Below, piece after piece: positions 23,756-26,700 of a stretch of DNA of 64,000 nucleotides. Each line of letters begins with the position of its first letter. The first letter of the stretch is position 1. The translations under genes and the position numbers were made by a program. The notes under the pieces are model-generated. The model searched no databases, had not been told where the DNA came from, and was given only the letters and a program-made list of their open reading frames with translations. The stretch covers positions 51,678,046 to 51,742,045 of the forward strand of contig NC_088302.1 in NCBI RefSeq assembly GCF_032854445.1, written 5' to 3'. This DNA is from Liolophura sinensis (lineage: Eukaryota > Mollusca > Polyplacophora > Chitonida > Chitonidae).

Positions 23756-26700
23756 TCAGACAGCTGAAAACAGCAAGCACACAATGTTGACATGATGCAA
23801 CGGTGCTGGATTGTGATCTTAAGAAGAAAATATTTATTTATATATTTATTTGATTAATGTTTTACGCCGCAATCCAGAATATTTCACTTATACGACGGCG
23901 GCCAGCATTGTGGTGGAAGGAAACCGGGCAGAGCCCGGGAGAACAAACCAAATATACAGACTGTGTTAGAAAGGCCAACGTTGGTATGATAGACTGCGGT
24001 ATCATGATTTGAAATGAAAGCTTTGGAATGACGATGAAGACCGAGTTAAAGTCAGAAGCAGCAATGTGAAAATGACTGTAGTAAAAGTCATTAACATATC
24101 TTCTCTAGTTTGAGGAAATTCAAATTAATCATTTTGGGCTCATGTTCATCGCTGTATTTGTCAGTGCATTGAGGCGAAATTTCAGAATCCATCTATCAAC
24201 TTTCCTGTTCATCAGATAAAAAAGCACACAAATCATTACAGCGCACTAGAGGTAATAATAACACCAATGGCTTATGAGGTGGCAAACGGCCGCTCGATGA
24301 CTATGCAGAGGGCAGATTAGAGACCTTACCTAGGGTCAAGTGCTCGGCTGTTAGGAACTCCTCCTCCGACAGTACGTAATCCCCTGGAAAAAAATAAGAT
24401 GCATTAATGTAAGATGATAAATGATATTATTCACCTAGAGCATGATGTTTCTGTGTACTGAAATCGGATGGAGAAGGCTTCAATACGCTCAGTGTTAGTA
24501 ACTGTCACGGAGAAGGTTTGTGTGCATTTAATGTCGGTATCTGTCAAGGAGAACTATACACTTACTGTTAGTATCCGTCACAGAGAAGGCTTCTAAACAC
24601 TTACTGTTAGTATCCGTCACGGAGAAGGCTTCAATACACTTACCGTTAGTATCCGTCACGGAGAAGGCTTCAATACACTTACCGTTAGTATCCGTCACGG
24701 AGAAGGCTTCAATACACTTACTGTTAGTATCCGTAACGGAGAAGGCTTCTATACACTTACTGTTAGTATCTGTCCAGGGAAGGCTTCTATACACTTACTG
24801 TTAGTATCAGTCACGGAGGAGGCTTATACACACTTACTGTTAGTATCTGTCAAGGGGAAGGCTTATATACACTTACTGTTAGTATCCGTCACAGAGAAGG
24901 CTTCTATACACTTACTGTCAGTATCCGTCCAGGAGAAGGCTTCAATACACTTACTGTTAGTATCCGTCACAGAGAAGGCTTCTATACACATACTGTTAGT
25001 ATCCGCCCAGGAGAAGGCTTCAATACACTTACTGTTAGTATCCGTCACAGATAAGGCTTCTATACACTTACTGTTAGTATCCGTCACGGAGAAGGCTTCA
25101 ATACAGTTACTGTTAGTATCCGTAACGGAGAAGTCTTCTATACACTTACCGTTAGTATCCGTCACGGAGAAGGCTTCAATACACTTACTGTTAGTATCCG
25201 TCCAGGGAAGGCTTCTATACACTTACTGTTAGTATCCGTCACGGAGAAGGCTTCAATACAGTTACTGTTAGTATCCGTAACGGAGAAGGCTTCTATACAC
25301 TTACCGTTAGTATCCGTCACGGAGAAGGCTTCTATACACTTACTGTTAGTATCTGTCCAGGGAAGGCTTCTATACACTTACTGTTAGTATCAGTCACGGA
25401 GGAGGCTTATACACACTTACTGTTAGTATCTGTCAAGAGGAAGGCTTATATACACTTTCTGTGAGTATCTGTCACGGAGAAGGCTTATATACACTTACTG
25501 TTAGTATCTGTCAAGGGGAAGGCTTATATACACTTATGTTAGTATCTGTCCAGGGGAAGGCTTATATACACTTACTGTGAGTATCTGTCACGGAGGAAGC
25601 TTATATACACTTCTAACAACAAATAGCTGCTTTCTGCAAGCCTATACTTACTGTTAGTATCCGTCAAGTTGAAGGCTTCCTGTAAACCAGGTTCGTTGAC
25701 ATTTTGAGCCAAGGCGACGGCAAACTCTTCTATTTCAATAACCTTGTTCTCATTGCGGTCGTAGAAATCAATGTTTGCTGGCAATGGTGTCATGTGTACG
25801 TTAGGATCCAGGACCTGCCACAACAAACAGCATTTATCATATTTATAAACTAAAGAATTTCGGCAGTGCCTGAAGAAAAAACGCGGCCCCCTAATAGAAG
25901 TTATCAGAAGGTAGACGCGTTAGATGAAGAATCTAAAAAAGAGTCGCCAGCCAGATAATCAGCAGATCTATTCAAGTTTGCCATATTGTTTGGAGTCAGT
26001 GGTAGGCTTCTCGTATCTTAGAGCACGGTTTCGCTCTTATGGTCAGCGGGTCCGTGTTGACGATAAGCCGTCGACGAAACTTGTACTTTCCTTGAATGGA
26101 CACTCGTTCTCAATCAATATGGTGTGCGCATGTGTACGTCACACGTGGAAAAGTTGGTCAGTACCTTGCCCACTGTGGGTGATTTACTCAGGGCACCCCG
26201 ATTTCCGCCATCAATACAACTGACCGCCATTGGATAAGAAAAAATTCTTATCACATGGCCTTAAATAACAACCTATTAATCACTCTTGGAGCATTTTTTC
26301 CGCTAGCTTAATTCAGGGTCCGGAATGCAGGATTTAGCAAACTGCCATCGCAAATGCAAACATTCCAAGGGTCATTTAATCTCAATTTTGCTTGTTTGTA
26401 ATATATAGCCTGGCCACAACAAAACCCCATAAATTCGTCGAGCCAACATATTCAGACACCTTACTACAGAATGTCAAAAATGATTTTTTTTGAATCTGTA
26501 CATGATAAATTATAATGCGCATATGTGCATATGGTGACGCATGCTTTCAATCTGGCTTTACTAGTCTATAAAGTCATACAATGCTCACGGTATGTGTTGA
26601 ATACTCCAGAACGTCAAGCTCAAATGATAAAATTGGCCGATGTTTTTGATTTCTGATGTTGTAAAATAACTTAGGACCTACCATACGTTTCTTTCTCCCA

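Follow-up and report, generated by a model that had tools for sequence, protein, structure and literature searches.

The window considered here, a stretch of 64,000 nucleotides from the chiton Liolophura sinensis (G000:C8:51678046-51742045), harbours on its minus strand four copies, named A to D, of a gene or of its remains, and a further copy, Z, is located outside the window (locus L001, G000:C8:51664087). The assembly searched amounts to 609,464,459 bases distributed over 632 contigs. In the genome paper on Liolophura japonica, the HiFi reads are given with a mean length of 8.3 kb, at 14x (PMC11068029), and the species of that paper has been corrected to Liolophura sinensis (PMC12441733). 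Since reads of this mean length exceed the 1.1-kb tandem array present in copy C, the length of this array, as taken from the assembly sequence only, is credible.

Once joined, with introns of the GT..AG type on the minus strand, copy C yields a product of 146 aa, whose start looks signal-like when judged by eye. The translation of exon 2 comprises an arginine-rich stretch with six cysteines, terminating in GRKKR, and the KKR precedes the EF-hand exon. One stretch of the product is recognized by the EF-hand_6 model PF13405 (26.7 bits vs a cut-off of 25), the EF-hand pair model PF13499 (23 bits vs 30) and PF00036 (24.6 bits vs 25.4) both staying under their cut-offs, and a search against solved structures gave EF-hand matches that were all weak (best E 0.024). 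From its sequence, copy C would encode a calcium-binding precursor of secreted appearance. The mytimycin precursors of mussels are described (PMC8004829) as consisting of a signal peptide, a cysteine-rich peptide, a dibasic site and a C-terminal EF-hand extension. Copy C, with an EF-hand C-terminal extension placed after KKR, resembles this layout as described there, but copies C and D possess six cysteines, whereas the same source gives 12 for the reference mytimycin; the likeness would be one of described layout.

Copy D is a close duplicate of copy C, 6.1 kb apart, and the two proteins differ by one residue. Both copies, which bear the longest arrays, have retained open coding frames. Exon 2 of copy A contains a frame break, seen by eye and from the tblastn match, which ends out of frame, and copy A is probably a pseudogene. 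Copy B is a relic, with no exon 3 match beside it. Towards the end of exon 3, copy Z is missing 4 nt relative to copy C, and no exon 2 match occurs within the 7.5 kb examined. At the genome scale, exon 3 has at least 23 matches at E up to 0.001 in the 609-Mb assembly, and all of the 23 listed loci, consisting of those of the window and 20 others, were examined. A search for spliced retrocopies, intended as an indirect indication of RNA structure, returned 8 matches, each of them at an exon-3 locus already listed.

Table 1. Features of the gene copies located in the window (positions counted from the first nucleotide of the window).
Feature	Position	Strand	Description
Copy A array	1048..1536	-	units of 39 bp and additional 18-bp sub-repeats; 12 GTAAGT donors
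Copy A exon 3	1626..1788	-	match to exon 3
Copy B	14240..14477	-	broken exon 2 relic
Copy C exon 5, coding part	23756..23763	-	ends with TGA; length read from sequence
Copy C exon 4	24330..24383	-	54 nt; remainder of the EF-hand
Copy C intron 3	24384..25651	-	1,268 nt
Copy C 39-bp array	24470..25612	-	29.5 TRF copies; 22 GTAAGT donors
Copy C real donor GTAAGT	25646..25651	-	context AACA/GTAAGTATAG
Copy C exon 3	25652..25814	-	163 nt; ends with ..GATACTAACA within the EF-hand loop
Copy C exon 2	26682..26897	-	216 nt; signal-like start, six-cysteine basic stretch, KKR
Copy D exon 4	30833..30886	-	joined gene model
Copy D 39-bp array	30973..31765	-	20.5 TRF copies; 13 GTAAGT donors
Copy D exon 3	31805..31967	-	0/163 differences from copy C
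Copy D exon 2	32826..33041	-	3 differences from copy C in 216 nt

Anatomy and origin of the 39-bp unit

The stretch 24384-25814 of the minus strand, to which the initial annotation had drawn attention, does consist of exon 3 and intron 3 of copy C, the array being lodged inside the intron, and the figure of about 22 donors following the real one was exact, since 22 GTAAGT were counted in the array. All array donors are situated downstream of the authentic donor and in the orientation of the gene. Eighteen of the 22 array donors of copy C read ACA/GTAAGT (the slash marking the exon/intron junction) and thereby reproduce the 9-mer of the real donor, the other four reading ACG/GTAAGT. The array contains 29 cores in copy C and 20 in copy D, and 8 of the 12 GTAAGT donors of copy A lie in 39-bp cores. 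After the first core, the units of copy C measure mostly 39 bp, some of them 38 bp, down to position 24470. The distance from the real donor to the first array donor varies with the copy, i.e., 76 nt in C, 152 nt in D, 119 nt in A and 39 nt in Z, whereas the last array donor is situated 182 nt from the exon 4 acceptor in both C and D, compared to 1,268 nt (C) and 918 nt (D) for the real donors.

That the unit derives from the tail of exon 3 together with its donor, as proposed in the initial annotation, is borne out by the comparison of the consensus unit with the final 28 nt of exon 3 plus the adjoining 11 nt of the intron, which match at 33 of 39 positions in copy C, 34 of 39 in copy D and 30 of 39 in copy A. 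Maxima of 22 to 25 were reached in 20 single-base shuffles of the window, and, with the arrays excluded, the only positions of the window with at least 24 matches to the unit are the junctions of C, D and A. The 76-nt spacing of copy C equals two units minus 2 bp and that of copy Z exactly one unit, so that the tail of exon 3 can be regarded as the array's unit zero. Between C and D, the final two units are identical and the number of cores differs, which indicates that units have been gained or lost internally.

The unit is private to this gene cluster. Its 20-mer GATACTAACAGTAAGTGTAT has 26 exact matches in the 609-Mb assembly. All 26 fall within the cluster, on the strand of the gene, the real donor of copy Z accounting for one, and the reversed control has no exact match genome-wide. 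With up to 2 mismatches allowed, 54 of 60 matches belong to the cluster, compared to 3 matches in total for the reversed control. A dispersed genomic satellite is ruled out by these counts, and the unit is not a common satellite unconnected with exon 3, the outcome under which the initial annotation would have abandoned its proposal.

Among the 23 listed exon-3 loci, a 39-bp array occurs within the first 2 kb past the exon 3 donor in four, namely Z, A, C and D, and is absent from this interval in the other 19. A GT is located at the identical end of exon 3 in 23/23 listed loci, and the exon 3/intron 3 boundary, as read from these sequences, is ancestral. In the tree built from exon 3, Z, A, C and D stand on one side of a branch with a support of 99/99; the tree gives no order within the four. 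Since the four array-bearing loci group together, a single origin followed by later growth represents the simplest history.

Donor strength and reading frame

Donor strength, which the initial annotation suggested computing, was assessed as the pairing energy with the U1 5' end: an equal value of -8.2 kcal/mol is obtained for the real donor and for the common array donor, and the ACG/GTAAGT variant, at -11.9 kcal/mol, pairs more strongly than the real donor. As 18 of the 22 array donors of copy C tie with the real one and four pair better, the donor sequence gives no ground for ignoring the array donors. The computed pairing fails to single out the real donor, which exon size and an upstream acceptor would therefore have to do.

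The reading frame is less permissive. It had been claimed that every unit ends in the phase of exon 3 and that any array donor could be joined in frame to exon 4. Because the first array donor of copy C is 76 nt away from the real donor and some units measure 38 bp, just 9 of the 22 array donors of copy C, and none of the 13 of copy D, share the phase of the real donor. Read-through from exon 3 meets a TAA at +77 in copy C and a stop at +71 in copy D. The only array donor reachable in C is accordingly the one at +76, which is out of phase, and none is reachable in D. No array donor is both in phase and free of stops up to exon 4, neither among the 22 of copy C nor among the 13 of copy D. The proposal that array units serve as alternative in-frame donors adding 13-aa repeats, the main one of the initial annotation, could draw on the consensus unit, which is open for 13 codons, and on a run of open units forming an ORF of 119 aa in copy C, but these phase and stop counts refute it for the present assembly and leave it with virtually no probability. 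Shortly after its birth the array might have been less constrained: given a unit open for 13 codons, the first duplication may have permitted an in-frame second donor.

With the exception of one of the 22 in C, every array donor of the two copies (21 in C, 13 of 13 in D) would leave the stop 50 nt or more ahead of the exon 3-4 junction. A stop so placed is the usual condition for nonsense-mediated decay, a rule established for mammals which may not be that of chitons. In proteins translated from such read-through transcripts, the cysteine-rich part, located in exon 2, would stay unaffected.

To read every unit as a 27-nt micro-exon, as had been claimed, is too general, an AG being located 27 nt upstream of 6 of the 22 donors of copy C; AGs occur 24 nt upstream of 19 of them and 9 nt upstream of 6. 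In a broader version, microexons running from an array AG to an array donor would be inserted between exons 3 and 4, with an in-frame extension of the EF-hand loop as the outcome. In-frame readings exist in copy C for microexons of 9 nt (6), 24 nt (19), 27 nt (6), 33 nt (3) and 48 nt (2), and in copy D for 9 nt (8), 24 nt (13), 27 nt (3) and 48 nt (3). Moreover, 25 of the 29 cores of copy C contain TACTAAC, a perfect match to the branch site. However, the best pyrimidine fraction ahead of the microexon AGs amounts to 0.41-0.65 depending on the length class, compared to 0.82 at the exon 4 acceptor, and exons as short as these normally require strong flanking signals. Microexon inclusion appears highly improbable.

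A probable history and its alternatives

Judged from the sequence, the array is probably a neutral minisatellite that was born on a splice donor and gives rise, at most, to unproductive splicing. According to this reading, a 39-bp tandem duplication would by chance have spanned the exon 3/intron 3 junction, most simply once, in a common ancestor of Z, A, C and D, and unequal exchange or slippage would then have enlarged it into an intronic minisatellite with a donor-like site in most of its units. The real donor most likely still performs nearly all of the splicing, since the exon that it closes is of normal size and is preceded by an acceptor of its own. If an array donor were used, the result would be unproductive noise, because exon 3 would be extended into an early stop or its frame shifted. 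A neutral expansion of a short duplication, mentioned as a fallback in the initial annotation, also agrees better than the isoform proposal with the repeat counts reported in the next section.

The most serious competitor holds that the array donors compete with the real one and that their use leads to a premature stop, with a degraded transcript or a shortened precursor as the result, the length of the array then setting the output of an otherwise intact gene. The 9-mer shared with the real donor, the stops located at least 50 nt ahead of the junction for almost all array donors, and the proximity of the last array donor to the exon 4 acceptor would all suit such a competition. On the other hand, exons lengthened by several hundred nt to more than 1 kb are usually poorly recognized, and the frames of copies C and D remain open; we regard this competition as unlikely. 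A more elaborate form, in which the array would act as a length-tunable brake on an immune-type precursor, with copies C (22 donors) and D (13 donors) set to different outputs, seems less probable still. If it were true, decoys of equal strength would divert part of the transcripts of two genes with nearly identical proteins to a premature stop.

The comparison of copies C and D offers a weak sign of selection. Differences are found at 3 of 432 coding and 94 of 2,886 noncoding positions (Fisher p = 0.0012), or at 83 of 2,411 noncoding positions (p = 0.0007) for the narrower set from which the intron-3 ends and the exon 5/3'UTR region are removed. Taken separately, exon 2 (3/216) gives p = 0.16, and exons 3 and 4 together (0/216) are no different from the intron-3 ends (2/214, p = 0.25), so that gene conversion could account for the coding similarity of the two copies. 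Within the units, the 10-bp core GATACTAACA, which contains TACTAAC, shows fewer distinct variants than the first 18 bases (C 0.005, D 0.04, A 0.14; combined p = 0.008), the test using 57 of the 61 units, with 4 out of register dropped, and treating the columns as independent although units copy each other. Filtering on the core plus the donor retained 48 units. Such a constraint would not be required of a wholly neutral array, and the low variability of the core does not fit simple neutrality. For the donor columns compared to the other columns, no clear difference was found within single arrays (p 0.14-0.43); with the arrays combined, the donor columns have fewer variants (p 0.045).

Under the neutral reading, the array would have a precedent in man. 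The minisatellite of human IFI6 (6-16/G1P3) reportedly provides multiple splice donor sites, according to work attributed to Turri, Cuin & Porter in 1995. According to a later account, two downstream repeat units of this minisatellite act as donors, and three mRNA species result (PMC4526556). The tandem unit of the chiton likewise carries a complete donor resembling the authentic one, although the use of the chiton donors is putative. In contrast to IFI6, the chiton unit measures 39 bp and copies the tail of a coding exon together with its donor, the unit nearest the exon has degenerated in C and D, and an in-frame open join, a property which may not be strictly defining for the IFI6 type, is offered by none of the array donors. 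The chiton array is an object of the same kind, presumably of separate origin, and provides a counterpart of the IFI6 minisatellite among invertebrates. It is genuine and results from an infrequent kind of DNA accident for which a precedent exists; it is no new splicing system. A second precedent is the model of intron gain by tandem genomic duplication (Rogers 1989; potato RdRp), in which, according to PMC4974935, a duplication crossing an exon-intron boundary carries the splice signals along. The chiton case differs in that the intron already exists in 23/23 listed loci, the duplication having taken place within an old intron, and none of the 23 listed exon-3 loci gives any indication of a newly gained intron that its paralogues would lack. 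No earlier account of the chiton locus was found among the titles and abstracts searched, which is no proof that the locus is undescribed.

The locus illustrates how a small duplication over a splice site may expand into an array while the gene retains its reading frame. Owing to the equal computed pairing, it would also constitute a useful natural test, copies C and D amounting to a natural competition experiment in which a single real donor is opposed by 22 or by 13 donors, all downstream and with equal or better computed U1 pairing. Their comparison would bear on whether the choice of a donor rests on the donor 9-mer or on the exon context.

Tandem repeats at other splice sites

The search for a tandem copy, defined as at least 26 of 40 matching bases within 2 kb, was positive for 6 of 46 windows placed over the exon-3 boundaries and for 116 of 920 control windows, which were drawn from the same repeat-rich loci with array interiors included; for 3 of the 46 boundary windows (the acceptors of L002-L004), the AG was 3 nt away from the position given by the fixed offset. 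The six positive windows correspond to the four donors of one common origin and to two acceptors. With no enrichment over the controls, the idea that tandem duplication specially targets splice sites is rejected. Close pairs of ACAGTAAGT number 336 genome-wide, compared to 1,536 for the reversed pattern, a count which a few large arrays may drive; in the absence of an excess, donor-bearing minisatellites are not considered unusually abundant in this genome. Both comparisons indicate that tandem repeats are common at exon-3 loci and that some of them cover splice sites by chance.

Acceptors are found duplicated as well. In the paralogue L008 (3121-3318, minus strand), the exon 3 acceptor and the first ~24 nt of exon 3 occur in triplicate with a 66-bp spacing. 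By eye, the middle acceptor copy is open and in frame into exon 3, with 22 extra codons, and the first one runs into a TGA; the neighbouring locus L009 has a single copy. In copy Z (L001:3681-3961, minus strand), the acceptor and the start of exon 3 are duplicated with a period of 145 bp, beside a 40-bp minisatellite (3929-5488) located upstream of exon 3.

Another array, of 37-bp units in 12.7 copies, is located upstream of exon 3 in locus L005 (3807-4295, minus strand), in which exon 2 was not found, and its unit holds the donor-like TGTAAGTATAC in the orientation of the gene. Elsewhere in the window, a 109-bp satellite of 44 copies (44531-49335) has a consensus unit which, read on the plus strand, includes two donor-like sites, CGTAAGTATG and CAGGTAAGAT. 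Finally, an 18-bp array of 136 copies (19284-21735) is open on both strands, with ORFs of 616 and 636 aa, and is probably merely a repeat.
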